DNA of 38,472 bases, from positions 1 to 38,472 of the IMG/VR virus record IMGVR_UViG_3300031784_000087, one strand, 5' to 3'. Of the stretch, positions 26,218 to 33,795 are shown piece after piece. How positions within the stretch are numbered: the stretch's first letter is position 1; every line of letters begins with the position of its first letter. The notes under the pieces are model-generated. The model was not told where the DNA came from, ran no database searches, and worked only from the letters and a program-made list of their open reading frames with translations. A program made the translations under genes and the position numbers. The DNA comes from a virus.

Positions 26218-27851
26218 TGCCAATCTATACGCTTGAGACTGGCGACGGACGCCGATTGAAGATCGAAGCGGATGCGCCTGAGTTGGCAATTGCCGAGGCT
26301 GATGCTTGGGCGGCTTCTAATCCGAAACAGAGTGCAGCAGGGGAGGCATTTAGCAATATTGGGCCAAGCGCGGCTCAGTATGCTTCCGACATCGTTGCTC
26401 CTTTCCTTGCTCCGGTTGAAACAGCACAAGCGATCGGACAACTTGGTAAAGGTCTGTACTCAAAAGCTGCTGGCGCTTTGGGTGCAAAGCAAGAGCTGGG
26501 TGAGAAGGAAAAGAACGAGGCTGTAGCAAATGCTCTTGGTGAATACTTCAAGGGCAGATACGGCGGCGCAAAAGAAATTGAAGAGACCTTCCGCAAAGAC
26601 CCCGTTGCACTTCTCGGCGATCTAAGTGCTGTTCTATCTCTTGGCGGCGGTCTTGTTGCTCGCGCCCCCGGTGCTGTTGCTGGTCCAGGCGGCGCTGGTG
26701 CTTTGGGTCTTATCTCTAAGGCCGGTCGAAATGTCGCAAAGGTTGGCGAAGCAATTGATCCTCTGATGATTGCTGGACGGACAACTGCTGCAACTGGTGG
26801 TTTGCTTGGCAAGGCGGCATCTGAGTTGACTGGCGTCCTGTCTGGCACTGGCGCAACTCCGATTGAACAGGCTTATCGCGCTGGTCGTACTGGCGATGCT
26901 AGCTTCACGACTGCAATGCGAGGTGCTGGTGAAACAGAAGATGCGCTGCGTCTTGTTGAGAGCGGTATCGATCAGGCTCGTCAGGCGCAAGTTTCTAACT
27001 ACTTGACAGACATCAACGCGCTTAAAAATGACAAACAGGTTCTTGATGCGAATCCAGTCATAAAGGCACTTGATGACACCAAAGAAATCTTTTCTAGCAA
27101 AGGTTCGGTGTTCGATGATGCTGCATCAGCAACATACGCCGCCGTAAGATCAAAGTTGGAAGAGTTTCTGACAAATCCTCAAATGCAAAATACGCCGTTT
27201 GAGTTTGACAGAATGAAGCTCGCAATAGGCAACATTGTTGCTGACGCGCCAAAAGGGAGCAGGGCTGCTAAAGTCGGTACAAAAGTATACGACTCAATCG
27301 TTGAGGAGATTACGAGCAAGGCTCCGACTTACGCAAAAACGATGTCTGAATATTCTGAAACGCAGAAACTGCTTTCAGAAATCAGAAAGACATTTTCTGT
27401 AGGCGGCAACCCTGATACGGCTCTTCGCAAGTTGCAGTCCGTGATGCGTAATAACGTCAATACAAACTACGGTCAGCGCCAGAAGTTGATTGACGTTCTT
27501 GCACAATACGAGCCTTCTCTTCCTAACGTGATTGCTGGTCAGGCTCTTGGCACATTCACACCTCGCGGTCTTGCTGGTCAGGCGGCTCGCTTGCAAGCTG
27601 GTGCTGCTGGTCTTCTTGGTGTTGGTGGTGCGGTGTCTCCGGGCGCTGCAATGCTGGCAATCCCAACTCTTGCTGCATCCTCGCCTCGCCTTCTCGGTGA
27701 GACGGCCTACGGCTTGGGCCGCACAGCCGCAGGCGTTGGCGCTGTAGCTCCCTATGCCACTCCGGCCCTTCGGACAGGATACCAAGTTGGCCGTGCCAAA
27801 GAAGAACTAGACAGAATGGCTCTAGAGTCGGCGGGCCTCCTAGGCCAATAA
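26217..27851 (+). CDS. Large ejection protein with hydrophobic segments (544 aa)
   Basis: Last gene of the late block, overlapping the previous by 1 bp. The N-terminus is beta-like (PIYTLETGDGRRLKIEADAP). Hydrophobic, Gly/Ala-rich segments lie at about 133-160 (VALLGDLSAVLSLGGGLVAR) and 455-500 (AGLLGVGGAVSPGAAMLAIP). A soluble helical domain lies between them. Such segments fit insertion into the host membrane. It ends 5 bp before the terminator. Confidence 0.75.
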   Translation: MPIYTLETGDGRRLKIEADAPELAIAEADAWAASNPKQSAAGEAFSNIGPSAAQYASDIVAPFLAPVETAQAIGQLGKGLYSKAAGALGAKQELGEKEKNEAVANALGEYFKGRYGGAKEIEETFRKDPVALLGDLSAVLSLGGGLVARAPGAVAGPGGAGALGLISKAGRNVAKVGEAIDPLMIAGRTTAATGGLLGKAASELTGVLSGTGATPIEQAYRAGRTGDASFTTAMRGAGETEDALRLVESGIDQARQAQVSNYLTDINALKNDKQVLDANPVIKALDDTKEIFSSKGSVFDDAASATYAAVRSKLEEFLTNPQMQNTPFEFDRMKLAIGNIVADAPKGSRAAKVGTKVYDSIVEEITSKAPTYAKTMSEYSETQKLLSEIRKTFSVGGNPDTALRKLQSVMRNNVNTNYGQRQKLIDVLAQYEPSLPNVIAGQALGTFTPRGLAGQAARLQAGAAGLLGVGGAVSPGAAMLAIPTLAASSPRLLGETAYGLGRTAAGVGAVAPYATPALRTGYQVGRAKEELDRMALESAGLLGQ

Positions 27852-27855
27852 CTTT

Positions 27856-27881
27856 AAGGGGCCAATTGGCCCCTTATTTTT
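27856..27881 (+). terminator. Strong Rho-independent terminator of the late block
   Basis: AAGGGGCCAATTGGCCCCTT (27856-27875) is a perfect 20-bp palindrome followed by ATTTTT. It lies 5 bp after the last ejection gene and directly before the promoter of the next unit. As the palindrome is symmetric, it could act in both directions. Confidence 0.88.
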
Positions 27882-27886
27882 CCCTA

Positions 27887-27916
27887 TTGACGGAAACAGA
27901 TATTTCCGCGTAGTCT
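27887..27916 (+). promoter_or_regulatory. Promoter of the replication/small-gene unit with inverted repeat
   Basis: TTGACG (27887-27892), an 18-bp spacer and TAGTCT (27911-27916). CGGAAA (27891-27896) and TTTCCG (27903-27908) are inverted arms lying between the two hexamers, as an operator would. The first gene starts at 27955 behind AAGGGGAG. Confidence 0.5.
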
Positions 27917-27954
27917 GCCTTCAGTCGCTGATTCGCGGCTAAGGGGAGACGCAA

Positions 27955-28158
27955 ATGCAAGTGATCCGGTTGGACCATGACGCCTTTTCTGGTGTCTACA
28001 CATTGTATCTACACGACCAAGAAGTCGGATACATTTCCAAGATCAAATACGAAAACAATGGCCGTAAGGGCTTCCGTGGCGTCAGCGTTCACGGACAGGT
28101 GATCTATGCCTACAGCCTGCTCTCGGCCCAGAACCTTCTGGTGGAGGCTTACCATTGA
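27955..28158 (+). CDS. Hypothetical protein (67 aa), first gene of the unit
   Basis: ATG 27955 has TAAGGGGAGACGCAA upstream, one of the strongest sites of the window. The protein is beta-rich (SGVYTLYLHDQEVGYISKIK, FRGVSVHGQVIYAYSLLSAQ). No family is recognised. Its stop overlaps the next TTG start. Confidence 0.68.
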   Translation: MQVIRLDHDAFSGVYTLYLHDQEVGYISKIKYENNGRKGFRGVSVHGQVIYAYSLLSAQNLLVEAYH

Positions 28159-28559
28159 ACTGGCTTGAGCATTACAAGGCGGTCAAGCACCGCATCGCTG
28201 TAGAGGCTCCTATTCGCGCTGGCAAGGTTGTAGTCGTTAAGCCAGTCGTGAAGATCGCCTACGTAGGCCCAGAAGTGCTGCCGGAACCGGAGGAAACACC
28301 GGACACCCAGCTTCTAACCGGCCTTCGTCCCTACAGGCTTGCGCCTTTGTTGCTGCCGATCTTGCGGGCTCACGACTTGCGGTTCTTGGACGTCAAGTCG
28401 CCCAGCCGTAAGAAGGTCTACAACTTGGCTCGCTTCGAGATGTACTACGTTCTCCAGAAGGATGGCATGTCCCTTAGCCAGATCGGCGTTGTGTTCAATC
28501 GGGACCACTCGACTATTTTGCACGGTATTCAACGGTGGAAGGAAAAGATCGGTGAGTGA
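28155..28559 (+). CDS. DnaA domain IV-like DNA-binding protein (134 aa)
   Basis: TTG 28155 has GGAGG 7 nt upstream. Residues about 78-128 match DnaA domain IV: a basic helix SRKKVYNLARFEMYYVLQ, then MSLSQIGVVFNRDHSTILHG with the RDHST-IxH signature (116-123). That motif reads DnaA boxes in the host initiator. No AAA+ domain is present, so it could guide replication initiation or compete with host DnaA. Residues 1-75 are a Pro/Val-rich region of unknown role. Confidence 0.8.
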   Translation: MNWLEHYKAVKHRIAVEAPIRAGKVVVVKPVVKIAYVGPEVLPEPEETPDTQLLTGLRPYRLAPLLLPILRAHDLRFLDVKSPSRKKVYNLARFEMYYVLQKDGMSLSQIGVVFNRDHSTILHGIQRWKEKIGE

Positions 28560-28899
28560 TATTCAGAATTTGCTTCATGCGCGGTCGGCTACGCACGGGA
28601 ACTTCGGCAACGTGGCGAACGTGGCGCAGAGGATCAAGCGCGTACTTCACGACACTGATGGATGGCCTTTCCTGTCAGATGAACAGGCTGAAAGCCTCGA
28701 CATGATCGCAATGAAGATTGCACGGGTTCTTTCTGGTGATCCGAGTCATTCAGATCATTGGGAGGATATTGAAGGGTATGCACGATTGGTGAGCAATAAG
28801 ATCGCATCAGACCGCGCGATTGATAGCATGGAGCGGTCCATCAGGGAAAAGGTGGAAAATGACAAACAATCAACTGCAACAACTGATCCAGAGAATTGA
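28552..28899 (+). CDS. DUF6378-like protein (115 aa)
   Basis: GTG 28552 behind GGAAGGAAAAGATC, overlapping the DnaA-like gene by 8 bp. LHARSATHGNFGNVANVAQR and LDMIAMKIARVLSGDPSHSD HWEDI are the DUF6378 pattern, common in phages of alphaproteobacteria. All-helical; role unknown. It overlaps the GapR start by 41 bp. Confidence 0.78.
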   Translation: MSDIQNLLHARSATHGNFGNVANVAQRIKRVLHDTDGWPFLSDEQAESLDMIAMKIARVLSGDPSHSDHWEDIEGYARLVSNKIASDRAIDSMERSIREKVENDKQSTATTDPEN

Positions 28900-29131
28900 G
28901 AAGCTGGAGGACGAGAAGTCCACACTGATGCTCGACATCAAAGAGGTCTATTCGGAAGCGAAGTCCATGGGCTTTGATCCGAAGATCATCAAGAAGGTCG
29001 TGTCCATCAGAGCCAAGGATGCAGCAAAAGTCGCTGAAGAACAGGCACTTCTTGATACCTACATGACCGCACTCGGTATGCTGGCAGACACGCCTCTTGG
29101 TCGCGCTGCGATTGAAAGGGACTTGCGGTGA
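28859..29131 (+). CDS. gapR: GapR-like nucleoid protein, DUF2312 (90 aa)
   Basis: Two segments match GapR: LQQLIQRIEKLEDEKSTLML then DIKEVYSEAKSMGFDPKIIK, and KKVVSIRAKDAAKVAEEQAL ending YMTALGM. GapR is an essential alphaproteobacterial protein that forms a clamp on overtwisted DNA ahead of replication forks. A phage copy could support or subvert this on phage DNA. ATG 28859 follows AAGGTGGAAA. The family call is strong; the phage role is inference. Confidence 0.88.
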   Translation: MTNNQLQQLIQRIEKLEDEKSTLMLDIKEVYSEAKSMGFDPKIIKKVVSIRAKDAAKVAEEQALLDTYMTALGMLADTPLGRAAIERDLR

Positions 29132-29403
29132 GGGAGGACTTCTTCCTTGAGATGATGCGGAGAAGGCTTGAGTCAGACGAAAGTCAGATGCTGGCCTTAA
29201 ACCGCTCAGTCATACACGACATGCTGGCAGTCTTTGGCCGTCAGCGTTCGCGTTACCTGGAGTGCAAAGATGCACTGAAACAATATGCCTGCGACTGCAC
29301 TATCTACTGTGGTCGCGAGCATTGGGCTGAAGATTACTGCGGTTATAGAGCGCAAGATTTGTCTAGGGAGAAAGACGATGGCAGCGATGAAGTACAGGTC
29401 TGA
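29128..29403 (+). CDS. Small Cys-rich coiled-coil protein (91 aa)
   Basis: GTG 29128 overlaps the GapR stop. The N-terminal half is helical. Residues 45-70 hold a CKDALKQYACDCTIYCG ... YCGYRA Cys cluster that could bind Zn. The end DLSREKDDG recalls the ALGEKKDG end of the array downstream, and its DNA CTAGGGAGAAAGACGATGG is a degenerate copy of the array junction. It looks like a diverged member of the same small-gene family. Confidence 0.68.
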   Translation: MREDFFLEMMRRRLESDESQMLALNRSVIHDMLAVFGRQRSRYLECKDALKQYACDCTIYCGREHWAEDYCGYRAQDLSREKDDGSDEVQV

Positions 29404-29590
29404 CGACATTCAGGAACTCAAGACAGAGATCGATTTCCTGAACTGCAAGATTGAGAATTACAGGCGCGGTCTGATCCGCATTGTCGAGATGGAAAGCTAT
29501 CCAACCGAGTCAGGGAGCACCGACTACGATGGTTTGTATCCGACAGGTAAGTTCGCATTGAAGGTTTTACATGGGGAGTGGCCGGAATGA
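29378..29590 (+). CDS. Small coiled-coil protein (70 aa)
   Basis: ATG 29378 follows TAGGGAGAAAGACG, inside the end of the previous gene. An N-terminal coiled coil (DDIQELKTEIDFLNCKIENY) precedes a compact C-terminus. No family is recognised. Its start sits in a degenerate copy of the array junction. Confidence 0.65.
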   Translation: MAAMKYRSDDIQELKTEIDFLNCKIENYRRGLIRIVEMESYPTESGSTDYDGLYPTGKFALKVLHGEWPE

Positions 29591-29757
29591 ACCGCGAAGA
29601 CATAATTCAAGAGATGATCCGTAGTGAGGAAAGATACAAGCAGTCCCTCGCTGATCTCAAAGCCTTTGAATTTCGGATGGCGGTGATCATGATCATTGGT
29701 GGCTCATTCCTGCTTGGCGGTTCAATCAGCTTTCTTCTGTATAAGGTGATGCAATGA
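29587..29757 (+). CDS. Small membrane protein (56 aa)
   Basis: ATG 29587 overlaps the preceding stop (ATGA). A charged helix (NREDIIQEMIRSEERYKQS) leads to one membrane segment at about 33-52 (VIMIIGGSFLLGGSISFLLY). Function unknown; a membrane takeover role is one possibility. Confidence 0.6.
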   Translation: MNREDIIQEMIRSEERYKQSLADLKAFEFRMAVIMIIGGSFLLGGSISFLLYKVMQ

Positions 29758-29984
29758 CCGACGATCTTGTGAAGCGGCTGCGTGAAGTAGGCAACAAAAA
29801 CGGCTTAATGTATGCGGACTATGATACGACCATAGAAGCCGCCGACCGCATTGAGGCGTTGAAAAAAGAACGTGATGAATGGAAACTCCGCACAATGGCA
29901 GCAATGCACTTTGTTCCAGACAACGTGACATTCGGTGAAATTCGCAACATTCGCGCCGCACTAGGGGAGAAGAAAGATGGATAA
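29754..29984 (+). CDS. Array gene 1: small coiled-coil protein ending ALGEKKDG (76 aa)
   Basis: The protein has a short helix (DDLVKRLREVGNKNG), a DRIEALKKERDEWKLR coiled coil and the end IRAALGEKKDG. The last codons are the ribosome site and start of the next gene, an 8-bp overlap. The DRIExLE-type coil plus shared C-terminus defines a family of five neighbours. Similar short proteins occur in other phages but I know no function. Confidence 0.75.
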   Translation: MTDDLVKRLREVGNKNGLMYADYDTTIEAADRIEALKKERDEWKLRTMAAMHFVPDNVTFGEIRNIRAALGEKKDG

Positions 29985-30159
29985 GGAGCAAGACGATCTG
30001 ACGCTTGTCTATATGTGGGCCTACAAGCAGGCCAAGCAAGAGTACAAAGATCGCATTGACGAACTAGAAGCGGCGCTGCTGGAGATCACGAAAACTGCGC
30101 CGTTTGGACATCCGCAAGAAATTGCCCGCGCCGCACTAGGGGAGAAGAAAGATGGATGA
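29977..30159 (+). CDS. Array gene 2: small coiled-coil protein ending ALGEKKDG (60 aa)
   Basis: ATG 29977 lies in the repeated junction. The sequence KDRIDELEAALLEITK is the shared coil, and ARAALGEKKDG the shared end. The N-terminal segment (MDKEQDDLTLVYMWAYKQAK) differs from its neighbours, so the N-terminus is the variable part of the cassette. Confidence 0.75.
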   Translation: MDKEQDDLTLVYMWAYKQAKQEYKDRIDELEAALLEITKTAPFGHPQEIARAALGEKKDG

Positions 30160-30382
30160 GGATCGGTTTTCAAAAGGTCCAATGGCTGCACTTGATCCAG
30201 CTAAATACTGGGAAGCCCAAGCATCCATGTGGCATGAGAACTACAAAGAAGCTATGGCGCATGAAGAAGAAGCTCGTCGCTATAAGGTAGCTCTAGAGCG
30301 AATACGTGACTCTGGCTATGGCACAAAGGAACGCATCCGTTTGATTATTATGAAAGCACTAGGGGAGAAGAAAGATGGATGA
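30152..30382 (+). CDS. Array gene 3: small protein ending ALGEKKDG (76 aa)
   Basis: ATG 30152 lies in the junction. The sequence is unlike genes 1 and 2 up to residue 40 (FSKGPMAALDPAKYWEAQAS, MWHENYKEAMAHEEEARRYK). It ends IIMKALGEKKDG. It shares only the junction and end, supporting modular assembly. Confidence 0.72.
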   Translation: MDEDRFSKGPMAALDPAKYWEAQASMWHENYKEAMAHEEEARRYKVALERIRDSGYGTKERIRLIIMKALGEKKDG

Positions 30383-30462
30383 TCTTGAAGTAGTGCCAAC
30401 GGATACGCTGAATAAGATGTTGGAGATGCAAATCCGTATTGAGCAACTGGAAACGGCGCTGC
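30356..30462 (+). repeat. 107-bp perfect direct repeat, copy 1
   Basis: Identical over 107 bp to 30726-30832 (offset 370). It spans the junction, the start of array gene 4 and about 88 bp of its coding sequence. Confidence 0.95.
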
Positions 30463-30752
30463 AAAGAGCAAACGCAACTACTGAAGAATACGAGCGCAAG
30501 TTCTATCTTGGAAGCGACCGCATTGAGCAACTGGAAGCGGCATATGCCCAACAGCAACAGGTCTGGAGCGATGCAATCGCCCGTGCGGATTGTTATGAAG
30601 CGGCGCTGCGGAAGATTGCCGCCATTGAAGATGAGGTTATCAATGTGCCAAAGACAGAAGAGGGGGCGCATCTTTGGACATATCTTTGGACAGCTTTAGA
30701 TATGTGCTTTGAGCTTTCTGAAGCCGCACTAGGGGAGAAGAAAGATGGATGA
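30375..30752 (+). CDS. Array gene 4: coiled-coil protein with internal repeat, ending ALGEKKDG (125 aa)
   Basis: The N-terminal 30 residues (DDLEVVPTDTLNKMLEMQIR, IEQLETAL) are identical in DNA to array gene 5. RIEQLETAL is repeated within the protein as DRIEQLEAAYAQQQQVW. A related QQQ-V-W motif occurs in the gene at 31052. It is the longest member, apparently made by fusion or duplication of coil units. Confidence 0.75.
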   Translation: MDDLEVVPTDTLNKMLEMQIRIEQLETALQRANATTEEYERKFYLGSDRIEQLEAAYAQQQQVWSDAIARADCYEAALRKIAAIEDEVINVPKTEEGAHLWTYLWTALDMCFELSEAALGEKKDG

Positions 30753-30832
30753 TCTTGAAGTAGTGCCAACGGATACGCTGAATAAGATGTTGGAGATGCA
30801 AATCCGTATTGAGCAACTGGAAACGGCGCTGC
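30726..30832 (+). repeat. 107-bp perfect direct repeat, copy 2
   Basis: Second copy of 30356-30462; it starts array gene 5. The lack of any mismatch points to a recent duplication or ongoing conversion. Confidence 0.95.
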
Positions 30833-30933
30833 GGGAAATCTGCGATGGCCCGCGTGATGCTGACAAGTCTTATGCAGAGTTGTTTGCAGAAGTGTGTTGG
30901 GAAGCCCGCGCTGCACTAGGGGAGAAGAAGTGA
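30745..30933 (+). CDS. Array gene 5: coiled-coil protein, ends ALGEKK (62 aa)
   Basis: Its first 88 bp are identical to array gene 4. The end is a shortened junction: after ALGEKK the reading frame stops (TGA), with no next start. So it closes the array. Its C-terminal half (EICDGPRDADKSYAELFAEV) is unique. Confidence 0.75.
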   Translation: MDDLEVVPTDTLNKMLEMQIRIEQLETALREICDGPRDADKSYAELFAEVCWEARAALGEKK

Positions 30934-30971
30934 GAAAACCTCCGCATTTGGGTGTAATTGGGTAGGTTTTC
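30934..30971. promoter_or_regulatory. Inverted repeat in the gap after the array
   Basis: GAAAACC (30934-30940) and GGTTTTC (30965-30971) form a 7-bp inverted repeat in the 118-bp gap between the array and the gene at 31052. No T-run follows. It could be a weak RNA hairpin. Confidence 0.35.
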
Positions 30972-31051: not shown

Positions 31052-31375
31052 ATGAGCAGCGATATTTGTGTTCAGCTACGAGAGCGCGGCGAGGATGTAG
31101 CGGCAGACTTTATTGAGAGACTTGGCAAACGCTTTGTGGATGAGGAACGAAAGTGTTTAATTTTGGAGCGGGCTTATTCACAACAGCAAAAGGTGTGGAG
31201 TGAGGCAATTTCGCGACGGGATAAGCTAGAGGCATTATTTCCTGCCATTCTGGAATACCTAGAACAGGAAGCAGATGTAATTGACGGGGGAAACGGTATT
31301 CCAAGTCCAAATACTGCAATGTCATTGCTGGTATGGACTCGTCATGCTCTTGAAGAGGAGGGGAAAAATGACTGA
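31052..31375 (+). CDS. Array-related coiled-coil protein (107 aa)
   Basis: ATG 31052 is preferred, 6-7 nt behind AAAGGGG. The segment ERAYSQQQKVWSEAISRRDK matches AAYAQQQQVWSDAIARADCY of array gene 4. The end ARHALEEEGKND-like (TRHALEEEGKND) recalls RAALGEKKDG, and it again overlaps the next ATG. It is a diverged family member outside the array. Confidence 0.72.
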   Translation: MSSDICVQLRERGEDVAADFIERLGKRFVDEERKCLILERAYSQQQKVWSEAISRRDKLEALFPAILEYLEQEADVIDGGNGIPSPNTAMSLLVWTRHALEEEGKND

Positions 31376-31520
31376 CAAAAAAGAACCGATCTACGCAAAG
31401 GCACCAGGCCAAGGGAAGAAGCCTATGATTATGAGAGCCTTGGCGCAGTCGGTTGGACGCAGAGCCCAGACTGTCAAGGTCACGCTACCTACGCTCAAAT
31501 CTATGGAAGAGAAGAAATGA
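31368..31520 (+). CDS. Small basic protein (50 aa)
   Basis: ATG 31368 behind GAGGAGGGGAAAA. The sequence (TDKKEPIYAKAPGQGKKPMI, SVGRRAQTVKVTLPTLK) is basic. The end MEEKK overlaps the next start (ATGA). No family is recognised; nucleic-acid binding is possible. Confidence 0.62.
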   Translation: MTDKKEPIYAKAPGQGKKPMIMRALAQSVGRRAQTVKVTLPTLKSMEEKK

Positions 31521-31660
31521 GCGGCCCTCTTATCATTCTTGTCGGCTTCATCTATGCCTACGTGGCTGTGGACCAGTACATGAATGGTAACACCGGCATG
31601 TCCATCGCTTACGCAGGATATGCCTTTAGCAACATTGGACTATGGATGCTGGCAAAATGA
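31517..31660 (+). CDS. Small membrane protein (47 aa)
   Basis: MSGPLIILVGFIYAYVAVDQ and MSIAYAGYAFSNIGLWMLAK give two hydrophobic stretches joined by a short loop. It overlaps both neighbours by 4 bp, a sign of co-translation. Role unknown. Confidence 0.6.
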   Translation: MSGPLIILVGFIYAYVAVDQYMNGNTGMSIAYAGYAFSNIGLWMLAK

Positions 31661-31824
31661 CTGGAGCCCAAATCATCGCAGCCGTCTTCGTCTTTCTTGT
31701 GCTTGTATACCTTGCGGCACTGGCAATCATTTTCGTATGGTTCTCGAAGGCAATGGAAGAGGACTGGGAGGATGGCGACCCCGGTCCCAAATGGGGAAAA
31801 GATCATGACAGAGGAAGAGATTGA
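31657..31824 (+). CDS. Small membrane protein with acidic tail (55 aa)
   Basis: ATG 31657 overlaps the previous stop; an upstream in-frame ATG at 31642 is possible. A membrane segment at about 5-27 (IIAAVFVFLVLVYLAALAII) leads to an acidic cytoplasmic-type tail (EEDWEDGDPGPKWGKDHD). With its neighbour it forms a membrane pair inside the early unit. Confidence 0.62.
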   Translation: MTGAQIIAAVFVFLVLVYLAALAIIFVWFSKAMEEDWEDGDPGPKWGKDHDRGRD

Positions 31825-31996
31825 GAACCTGATCTACCGGCTAGATGTCAGTCTCAGGAATGATTGGGGGGTGACCAAAGATGAACGATCACGGATGCGG
31901 GCGCTCTTATACGAAAGCAGAGATGCAATCAGAAAGCTATCAAACGAAAAACAGCAGCCCGTTCGTAAGGTTCCTGTTCGCCCAGATGCAGGCTGA
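31805..31996 (+). CDS. Small helical protein (63 aa)
   Basis: ATG 31805 follows GGGGAAAAGATC, within the end of the previous gene. The protein is helical (EEEIENLIYRLDVSLRNDWG, KDERSRMRALLYESRDAIRK). Its last 116 bp also encode the start of the HTH protein in another frame, so one of the two N- or C-termini may be shorter than called. No family is recognised. Confidence 0.55.
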   Translation: MTEEEIENLIYRLDVSLRNDWGVTKDERSRMRALLYESRDAIRKLSNEKQQPVRKVPVRPDAG

Positions 31997-32204
31997 CGGA
32001 ATCACAGAAGCTGAACTGGCACGACGCACTGGCATAGCACCGGCAACAATCCGAGGCTGGAAGACGCGCGTGACACCAAGGCTGATGGACATGGAAGCTG
32101 CTTTGAACGCCGTGGGTCATGAATTGATTATCGGTGTACGGAGAGATTTGAAGCCTTCCGTAAACAATGTTGTCCAGCTACGTTTGGTCCGAGGTGACAA
32201 ATGA
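31881..32204 (+). CDS. HTH protein, Cro/C1-type (107 aa)
   Basis: A helix-turn-helix lies at about 40-60: DGITEAELARRTGIAPATIR with GWKTRV recognition helix. The remaining domain (PRLMDMEAALNAVGHELIIG) is typical of small XRE-type regulators. ATG 31881 behind GGGGGGTGACCAAAG. A shorter start near residue 36 (MQADGITE) is possible. Likely a transcription regulator of phage or host genes. Confidence 0.75.
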   Translation: MNDHGCGRSYTKAEMQSESYQTKNSSPFVRFLFAQMQADGITEAELARRTGIAPATIRGWKTRVTPRLMDMEAALNAVGHELIIGVRRDLKPSVNNVVQLRLVRGDK

Positions 32205-32401
32205 AGTGCATGACATGCAAGTTTGCGACTGACAAAGACAAGGGCGCATTGAAGTGCCAACGCTTCCCGAAGGCGGTGATCGTTAGCCGGGAGTATTGGT
32301 GCGGTGAATATAATGAGGGGACCAATGAAATACGAACTGATAAAAGACCTACCGGCAAGCGACTATCACAAGATCGAAGCGTTCTCGGCGTCAACAGCTA
32401 A
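32201..32401 (+). CDS. Small Zn-ribbon-like protein (66 aa)
   Basis: MKCMTCKFATDKDKGALKCQ followed by RFPKAV and YWCGEYN gives CxxC-x12-C-x-RFP ... WCGEY, a common short phage Zn-binding pattern. The start overlaps the previous stop. Its last 77 bp overlap the nuclease gene, so the C-terminus (TDKRPTGKRLSQDRSV) may be just the overlap frame. Confidence 0.65.
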   Translation: MKCMTCKFATDKDKGALKCQRFPKAVIVSREYWCGEYNEGTNEIRTDKRPTGKRLSQDRSVLGVNS

Positions 32402-33134
32402 GATATGCCTGCGGTCTGCGGCTCACTTTGCGGCATCGAAAGAGACTGTCAAAGAGCCAACAGAAGCGATGAAGATCGGGACTGCTGTCCATACAGCGAT
32501 TCTGGAGCCGCATCTGTTTGATAGTGAAATCGCTATAATGCCCAAGTTCGACAAGAGGACGAAGGCTGGCAAGGAAGGCGCGGAGCAATTCGAAAACGAT
32601 AACGTCGGCAAGACTGTAATCGACTGGTATCAGGGCGAGCGGGTCAAGAGCATTGCCGAGTCTGTGAGGGGACATGAGTTCTTCAAGACCTACGTCAGAG
32701 ACGGGGATGCAGAGGCAACGATGCTTTGGGGACAGTACGGCCTCCAGTGCAAAGCCCGTGTTGATTACCTTGCGGGTCGGACCATCTTCGATGTCAAAAC
32801 CTGCCAAGACGCAAGTCCTGCGGGGTTCGCAAAGCAAGTTGCTAGTTTCGGCTACCACATGCAAGCGGCGCACTACGCGATGGGGTTCAAGCGTGTACGC
32901 GGTGAGATGCTGGATCGCTTCGTCTTCATTGCGGTGGAGTCAACTTATCCGCACATGGTCGGCATCTATACGCTCAACGTGGAAAGCCTGAAGGCTGGAC
33001 AGACAGAACTTGGCAAGGCCGCCCGGATATATGCACACGCCATGAGCGAGAAGCCGGAACTCACCTACTCCAAGCGAGTGGTCGAGATCAGCATCCCGCA
33101 GTGGGCTATGCCTGAACCGTTCGAGGGCAAGTGA
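32325..33134 (+). CDS. PD-(D/E)XK exonuclease, RecE/Cas4-like (269 aa)
   Basis: ATG 32325 behind GAGGGG. The order is: N-terminal helix (FSASTAKICLRSAAHFA), MKIGTAVHTAILEP (the conserved GxxxH), LQCKARVDYLAGRTIFDVKT with the catalytic D and D-x-K, then FGYHMQAAHYAMGF (QxxxY). This is the family of RecE-type 5'-3' exonucleases (DUF3799). It likely processes DNA ends for recombination with the SSB-like protein. No RecT-type annealing gene is recognised. Confidence 0.85.
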   Translation: MKYELIKDLPASDYHKIEAFSASTAKICLRSAAHFAASKETVKEPTEAMKIGTAVHTAILEPHLFDSEIAIMPKFDKRTKAGKEGAEQFENDNVGKTVIDWYQGERVKSIAESVRGHEFFKTYVRDGDAEATMLWGQYGLQCKARVDYLAGRTIFDVKTCQDASPAGFAKQVASFGYHMQAAHYAMGFKRVRGEMLDRFVFIAVESTYPHMVGIYTLNVESLKAGQTELGKAARIYAHAMSEKPELTYSKRVVEISIPQWAMPEPFEGK

Positions 33135-33334
33135 TGGAACAGGCAAAGGTCATCGAGTTCATTGAGACTGAGCGCGTGAAGCAGGGCATCTCTCTGCGTC
33201 AGATCGGCAAGCTGTCTGGGCTGTCTCATGCGACATACCAGTCAGCCCTGCGGCTCAATCGTGGCATGACGCTGGAGTCGATCTGCAAGCTCTTGGATGC
33301 TGTTGGCTATCGTTTGAAGGTTGAGAAGAGATGA
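33134..33334 (+). CDS. HTH protein, XRE family (66 aa)
   Basis: ATG 33134 overlaps the preceding stop (GTGATG). SLRQIGKLSGLSHATYQSAL is a helix-turn-helix, and TLESICKLLDAVGYRLKVEK follows as in small XRE regulators. Probable DNA-binding regulator. It overlaps the RuvC start by 4 bp. Confidence 0.78.
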   Translation: MEQAKVIEFIETERVKQGISLRQIGKLSGLSHATYQSALRLNRGMTLESICKLLDAVGYRLKVEKR

Positions 33335-33795
33335 TCCTCGCAATCGATCCAGGAGCTAAAGGTGCTCTGGCTTTCTTCAACATGGAGAAGGGCACGCTCG
33401 ACATCGTGGACTGCCCGACTGTGGAGGTGAAACGTGGAGCAAAAGTCAAAACGGAAATCTCTCCGCAGATGGTTGCCGGTATCATCGCCTCGCGATCCCC
33501 GACACTTGCCATTCTTGAGAAGGTGGGCGCGATGCCAGGTCAGGGGGTCTCAAGTATGTTTCAATTTGGCAGGGGCGTTGGAATGTACGAGGGAGTGCTG
33601 GCTGCGCTGCAAGTACCTGTCACCTTCGTCGCGCCCCAAACATGGCAGAAAGCTCTGAACCTCAGAGGCGGTAAGGACGGCAATAGAGCAAGGGCAGCGG
33701 AACTCTATCCAGCTTACGCGAACTACTTCGCAAAGAAGAAAGACGATGGCCGTGCTGATGCAGCACTCATGGCCTATTGGGGAGCATCGAGATGA
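33331..33795 (+). CDS. RuvC-like Holliday junction resolvase (154 aa)
   Basis: MILAIDPGAKGALAF holds the first catalytic Asp (D6), TLAILEKVGAMPGQG the Glu (E63), and KKKDDGRADAALMAYW the C-terminal Asp residues (D138/D139 and D143). This is the RuvC set. It would cut branched DNA from replication and recombination before packaging. Start ATG 33331 overlaps the HTH gene by 4 bp. Confidence 0.88.
   Translation: MILAIDPGAKGALAFFNMEKGTLDIVDCPTVEVKRGAKVKTEISPQMVAGIIASRSPTLAILEKVGAMPGQGVSSMFQFGRGVGMYEGVLAALQVPVTFVAPQTWQKALNLRGGKDGNRARAAELYPAYANYFAKKKDDGRADAALMAYWGASR

Follow-up and report, generated by a model that had tools for sequence, protein, structure and literature searches.

A recurrent coding joint in an array of small phage genes that probably belongs to a family shuffled among phages

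Array Organization and the End Joint

The viral record IMGVR_UViG_3300031784_000087, analyzed here over its full length (38,472 bp, the complete IMG/VR record, hereafter the window), carries at positions 29754-30933 of the + strand an array of five overlapping open reading frames (ORFs), g1 to g5, encoding 76, 60, 76, 125, and 62 aa, respectively. The terminase of the window phage shares 83 and 71% identity with those of two Manatee Spring phages and 70% with that of Sinorhizobium phage phiM5. An earlier note on this DNA had described five coiled-coil genes that share the end ALGEKKDG, with a 20-bp junction in which the same bases hold the ribosome site and the ATG of the next gene, and had proposed that small ORFs are gained, lost, and swapped there. 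We found the common end in four ORFs, whereas g5 stops directly after ALGEKK (AAGAAGTGA). Similarly, a core of the RIE.LE type is present in g1, g2, g4, and g5, in line with the coiled-coil description, but g3 has a different helical body.

The full layout is seen in g1 (29754-29984), which consists of a start block, a first variable part, a core (AADRIEALKK), a second variable part and ALGEKKDG. In g2 (29977-30159), the core block reads RIDELEAAL, while g3 (30152-30382) is missing the usual core and has a C-terminal module YWEAQASMWHENYK...KALGEKK. Two core blocks (30435-30463 and 30518-30541) were found in g4 (30375-30752). The front of g5 (30745-30933) is identical to that of g4 as part of a repeated 107-nt stretch covering the joint and the gene front (30356-30462 = 30726-30832), and its back half is shared with a related contig, L061, where it is fused to another front.

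The gene borders are formed by a 27-mer, GCACTAGGGGAGAAGAAAGATGGATRA, with four exact copies (0 expected from 100 shuffles) and a fifth copy truncated at the array end. Its 17-mer core has five copies in the array and none elsewhere in the record. The full joint does four jobs, as it holds the ALGEKKDG codons, the Shine-Dalgarno (SD) sequence GGGGAG, the ATG of the next gene and, in the other frame, the stop of the upstream gene. Thus, the same bases do carry the ribosome site and the next start, as first noticed, although the stretch held in common measures 27-36 bp, not 20 bp. Joint 1 (29958-29984) comprises the end of g1, the SD, the g2 ATG and the g1 stop; joints 2 (g2/g3, 30133-30159), 3 (g3/g4, 30356-30382), and 4 (g4/g5, 30726-30752) follow on the same strand, and the terminal joint (30913-30933, +) retains the ALGEKK coding end and a TGA stop with no ATG after it. 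Neighboring genes overlap by 8 nt (ATGGATRA), and the SD lies 7 nt ahead of each ATG, with a joint/anti-Shine-Dalgarno pairing energy of -8.5 kcal/mol. The Leu codon of the joint, CTA, represents 3.3% of Leu codons in the window phage. Because the end joint alone holds the upstream C-terminus, the ribosome site and the next start codon, an insertion or deletion from joint to joint preserves both the reading frame and the translational coupling. A stem-loop (30934-30971, -14.1 kcal/mol) lies right behind the last cassette. None was found at the end of the L061 array, which runs directly into the next gene, and we dropped the idea that this hairpin marks where the array ends.

Similarity Between Phages Switches at Three Blocks

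The flanks of the array are well conserved in L061, the closest relative, with 94.5 and 96.6% DNA identity to window positions 27850-29590 and 31363-33225, but the DNA between them measures 1.77 kb in the window and 0.61 kb in L061. On the same strand, L061 carries the g5 back half, then g3 with another N-terminus, then g2, which is the reverse of the window order; two of these three shared modules have different N-termini. Other cassettes with the same joint were found in the records MW202711, where they occupy the same slot, and MW202496, so that cassette number and order vary among these phages. A fixed order of the same five genes in all relatives, which the earlier note had set against its own proposal, is contradicted by the reversed order in L061. 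In the public record of MW202711 (L096), no gene is annotated at 589-1508, yet joint-bearing cassette ORFs lie in or adjoin this region, a case in which small cassette genes were easily missed by annotation.

Individual modules of the array recur elsewhere. The g2 gene forms the last cassette of L061 (94% DNA match) and has matches of 74-84% in at least nine other contigs. Nine other contigs carry the g3 module (30200-30349) at 83-94% identity, joined there to three or more different N-termini, and a protein search placed it at 15 loci. The middle module of g4 is also present in L249, L036, and L011. When the ends of high-scoring segment pairs (HSPs) were mapped, 109 3' ends fell at the joint compared with ~8 expected, and 40 of these coincided with the G of the ATG. 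For 5' ends, the count at the joint was 73 (~8 expected). We then took contig pairs with 80% or more similarity on one flank of the joint and scored their similarity on the opposite flank. Linkage across the end joint was observed for 15 of 66 pairs, or 1 of 50 with exact duplicates removed, as opposed to 2313 of 2575 (90%) at control 20-mers away from the arrays in the same contigs. Around the joint, information falls to ~0 bits from about 10 nt on either side (115 unique contexts). Gain, loss and swapping of small ORFs between conserved joints, as proposed in the earlier note, agree with the different L061 array between like flanks and with the break of similarity at the joint, which was seen over 79 viral contigs.

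The exact 17-mer core was found in 79 other viral contigs, with up to three copies in each. In 257 Gb of bacterial and archaeal DNA it occurred in 11 scattered contigs, compared with ~30 expected by chance (an estimate), and there was no plasmid match. A search for the ALGEKK pattern with nearly all codon choices allowed matched 90 viral contigs. For the fully degenerate pattern ALGEKK(K/R/E)M, 99 of 128 hits over all loci were one identical 22-mer out of 1536 possible.

Two further blocks inside the genes behave similarly, and similarity between phages switches at each of these shared short sequences. The start block (29754-29782, +, ATGACCGACGATCTTGTGAAGCGGCTGCG) codes for M.DDLVKRLR. Its 20-mer (GATCTTGTGAAGCGGCTGCG) was present in more than 119 viral contigs among the matches listed, with unrelated flanks on both sides; L170, L210, L214, L224, L226, L228, and L233, for example, are alike upstream of the block and continue into seven different modules. 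The core block (RIEQLEAAL, 30805-30833, +, CGTATTGAGCAACTGGAAACGGCGCTGCG) has other copies near 29846, 30052, 30435, and 30518. Linkage was 29 of 163 across the start block and 12 of 44 across the core block. All three blocks are near-constant down to synonymous codons (start ATGACTGAYGATCTTGTGAAGCGGCTGCG, core CGCATTGAGCAACTGGAAGCGGCGCTG, end GCACTAGGGGAGAAGAAAGATG), with two variable slots between them. When sets were selected via the end joint, codon use in the start and core blocks was CTT in 21 of 21, GTG in 18 of 21 and GCG in 29 of 30 cases, and a ribosome site is therefore insufficient to explain the conservation. Since these two DNA joints sit inside genes, the exchanged unit is often half a gene. 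A second end form, GCACTGGAGGGGAAAGATG, which codes for an ALEGK end, is common in other phages, e.g., L170, L190, L223, and L226. Some variable halves (AHIYAWYPISV...) were found with both types of end joint.

Combinations of Variable Halves in Unrelated Phages

Both variable slots could be parsed in 82 cassettes, which gave 57 clusters for the first slot and 63 for the second. Among recurrent clusters, 13 of 16 first halves had at least two second-half partners, and 12 of 14 second halves had at least two first-half partners, showing that modules have been recombined across the blocks. One first half (REVKDWWREPGRTAEQAAD and a near-identical form) was paired with six different second halves. 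In nine of the 82 cassettes, the second slot holds clustered Cys/His modules (e.g., KHDGCEHGRPMYEDCDIC) that resemble small zinc-binding units.

Where the flank was sufficient for comparison, 32 of 42 contig pairs sharing a module (20 of 25 and 12 of 17) had no related flanks. The window terminase had a remote match in only three of 78 joint-bearing records, of which many are fragments; among the longer records are phages differing in terminase, portal, and tail. The g3 module, for instance, is shared at 89% identity by the window and L036, a record with a gene for a tape-measure protein and another portal. Judged from these comparisons, the modules occur in unrelated phages.

The proteins follow the consensus MTDDLVKRLR-x-AADRIExLEAALR-x-ARAALGEKKD. 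Between shared modules, 36-40% of synonymous sites differ, and the ratio of nonsynonymous to synonymous differences (pN/pS) was 0.08 for the first slot and 0.16 for the second, which places the variable modules under purifying selection. These low ratios suggest that the module products are translated and selected. Values this far below 1 show no more than that the products are important to the phage.

Recombination Genes and Interpretation

A gene for an exonuclease VIII/RecE-like exonuclease lies 1.4 kb downstream of the array (32304-33134, +; PF12684, 6.5e-31; phrog_412 exonuclease VIII, 5.8e-73) and is a possible recombination partner. Beyond it is a gene for a RuvC-like Holliday junction resolvase (33331-33795, +; phrog_1770, 9.8e-33). 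Recombination genes of the annealing type occur often; we searched the window and 17 other joint-bearing records and found ERF in four of these 18. In two other loci, genes begin exactly at the ATG of a joint, namely a RecT gene (PF03837, L015:1082-1843) and a YqaJ exonuclease gene (PF09588, L030:4549-5406), so the joint system also contains recombination genes. Activity on homology that is both short and diverged has been established for Rad52-like phage recombinases (PMC3945230).

Taken together, the array very likely exemplifies a family of small helical phage proteins whose parts are shuffled by exchange at three blocks. Homologous or annealing exchange at these blocks appears to be the simplest reading. 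During co-infection, single-strand annealing or homologous recombination would use the 20-57 bp blocks as homology, with phage RecE/YqaJ exonucleases, ERF/RecT annealing proteins or host RecA as candidate agents. Exchange within one array would lead to duplication and loss, and could also occur between unrelated phages. The products might be accessory early proteins acting on the host or on anti-phage defense, in which a common coiled-coil core carries variable target-binding halves. We tentatively extend this to a combinatorial diversification system common to unrelated phages, with universal joints and assembly during co-infection from a common pool of two-slot helical proteins. Insertions would be in frame and coupled, and the result would be a rapidly renewed set for host takeover or counter-defense.

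Several points weigh against the interpretation as a shuffling family. Exchange was read from sequence, and no recombination event has been seen experimentally. No annealing protein was recognized in the window phage (searches for RecT and ERF were negative). The data are mostly metagenome contigs, many of them fragments, and the loci were gathered via the joints, so that joint counts apply to this collection and not to phages at large. As for function, neither Pfam nor PHROGs was informative for the five array proteins. Over 67 members, Pfam gave only isolated chance-level hits, one unknown PHROG was found in four, and a profile search of the PDB returned weak hits only (YacP, 0.005). The AlphaFold model of g1 has three helices and is of modest quality (predicted local distance difference test score, pLDDT, 76; predicted template modeling score, pTM, 0.47), and we did not consider it strong enough to search for related folds. 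An accessory role of the products in host takeover or anti-defense is a guess.

The exchange could instead be site-specific, with an unrecognized recombinase or nicking nuclease acting on the joint in the manner of an integron or invertase. The 22-mer is indeed near-invariant beyond what the peptide and the SD need, and HSP ends peak at one base. A single-base peak is, however, also expected where homology simply ends; four DNA blocks (start, core, and the two end forms) are all exchange points, and the 5' breakpoints are spread out. Moreover, neither a tyrosine recombinase (PF00589) nor a serine recombinase was found in any of the 18 records, which is consistent with integron-like modularity without an integrase, as the earlier note had suggested. 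We consider a site-specific system unlikely. A diversity-generating retroelement was rejected, as reverse transcriptase (PF00078) was absent from the same 18 records.

It is similarly improbable that the ORFs are selfish filler, prone to recombination and spread via the joints with no benefit to the phage. The highly variable array content, one frameshifted copy (L082) and the lack of a function from the Pfam, PHROG, and PDB searches would fit such filler, but start, stop and SD are maintained and pN/pS is low in both variable slots. Tandem duplication and divergence of one ancestral gene without exchange, the ends being kept as a functional C-terminal peptide or ribosome site, is very unlikely. 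Duplication does occur, given the 107 identical nt in g4 and g5, and the joint contains a real SD. Nevertheless, neighbors within one array are unrelated outside the blocks, modules are combinatorially common to phages (mostly 74-95% DNA identity), the synonymous conservation of the start and core blocks is not explicable by the SD, and both the reversed L061 order and the partners of the variable halves contradict descent by duplication alone. Finally, nearly all contigs are metagenomic and the joints are repeats, but false joining of phage genomes during assembly is highly improbable, as the repeats (22-57 nt) are below typical read lengths and final assembly k-mers, the same combinations were found in near-duplicate contigs from different IMG samples (L041/L065/L074, L038/L053/L057, L012/L052), two Manatee Spring records with joints were deposited as complete circular genomes, and the proteins are in frame and under purifying selection.

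Neighboring Features

A hairpin with a T-run (27855-27876, TAAGGGGCCAATTGGCCCCTTATTTTT) is probably the terminator that precedes the array-bearing region. A small protein with the C-terminal helix-turn-helix of DnaA (28155-28559, PF08299) is a possible replication initiator or DnaA-box binder. We also found a phage-encoded GapR-like DNA-binding protein (28820-29131, PF10073, 2e-28), a typical alphaproteobacterial chromosome protein, which suggests that the host of the window phage is probably alphaproteobacterial.

Comparison with Known Systems

Cluster K mycobacteriophages have start-associated sequences (SAS) and extended SAS (ESAS), which are short conserved DNA elements with a ribosome site at the starts of many unrelated non-structural genes. 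They are conserved beyond the need for pairing, and the authors suggested that they are possible targets of homologous recombination (PMC3203893). As in the array, where GGGGAG lies 7 nt before the ATG, a conserved repeat places an SD a few nt ahead of the start. SAS are 13 bp long, found mostly before genes with intergenic gaps >50 bp and nearly confined to one phage cluster (PMC3203893). By contrast, the joint described here lies within coding sequence and supplies the C-terminus and stop of the upstream gene. It is found in unrelated phages, together with two intragenic joints. The 13-bp SAS consensus, GGGATAGGAGCCC, is not matched by the joint, GCACTAGGGGAGAAGAAAGATG.

In T4-type phages, promoter/stem-loop (PeSL) cassettes (Arbiol 2010; Comeau 2014) are repeated regulatory sequences thought to shuffle small accessory genes while expression is kept, as summarized in PMC4503421. 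PeSLs are promoter and stem-loop transcription signals, whereas the joints here are translational and coding and half-genes are exchanged. A consensus scan (sigma-70 type only) of 29754-30933 detected neither a promoter-like site on the + strand nor a terminator-like site. Conserved boundary sequences of phage modules are familiar from lambdoid phages. Homologous recombination at such short sequences has also been described (as cited in PMC3029335). Phage recombination functions accompany the joints here too, with exonuclease VIII and the RuvC-like protein in the window, ERF in some joint-bearing records and RecT and YqaJ at joints. Unlike classical boundary sequences, one sequence here recurs five times in a single genome and in tens of other phages.

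Ea22 of lambdoid phages is comparable at the protein level. According to two papers (PMC7093339, PMC10834534), it is transcribed early from a gene between exo and xis and has a short N-terminal part, a coiled coil and a C-terminal part that differs strongly between lambda and Stx-phage homologues. Neither an array nor a shared DNA joint was found in these accounts, and the Ea22 Pfam family gave no match among the 67 members scanned. Integrons resemble the array in their small promoterless ORFs, recurrent joint, and variable number and order. In contrast to integrons, no integrase and no attC-like site were found, and the joint is coding and carries a ribosome-binding site. There is no intergenic attC-like site because neighboring ORFs overlap by 8 nt, and a repeat search of the window found no inverted repeat within a joint.

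Significance

Conserved boundary or start-associated sequences are therefore a known idea (PMC3029335, PMC3203893; PeSLs via PMC4503421). For a coding joint that combines C-terminus, ribosome site, start, and stop, together with two intragenic joints through which the shuffling of half-genes becomes visible in unrelated phages, we found no earlier description in the literature searched, which consisted mostly of papers outside subscription. Phages carry many small genes of variable occurrence, and how such genes are acquired while neighboring genes stay intact is for the most part unexplained. The existence of boundary sequences was suggested long ago, but at most mosaic borders they were reported to be unidentifiable (PMC3029335). 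In the array, the boundary can be seen and is recurrent, has its own ribosome site and coding end, and is directly testable. The partner table of variable halves also lists proteins that have recombined naturally, which can be used directly to search for the binding partners of these halves. As the sequences stand, each new combination would retain a working start and stop, with no dedicated recombination enzyme found so far.
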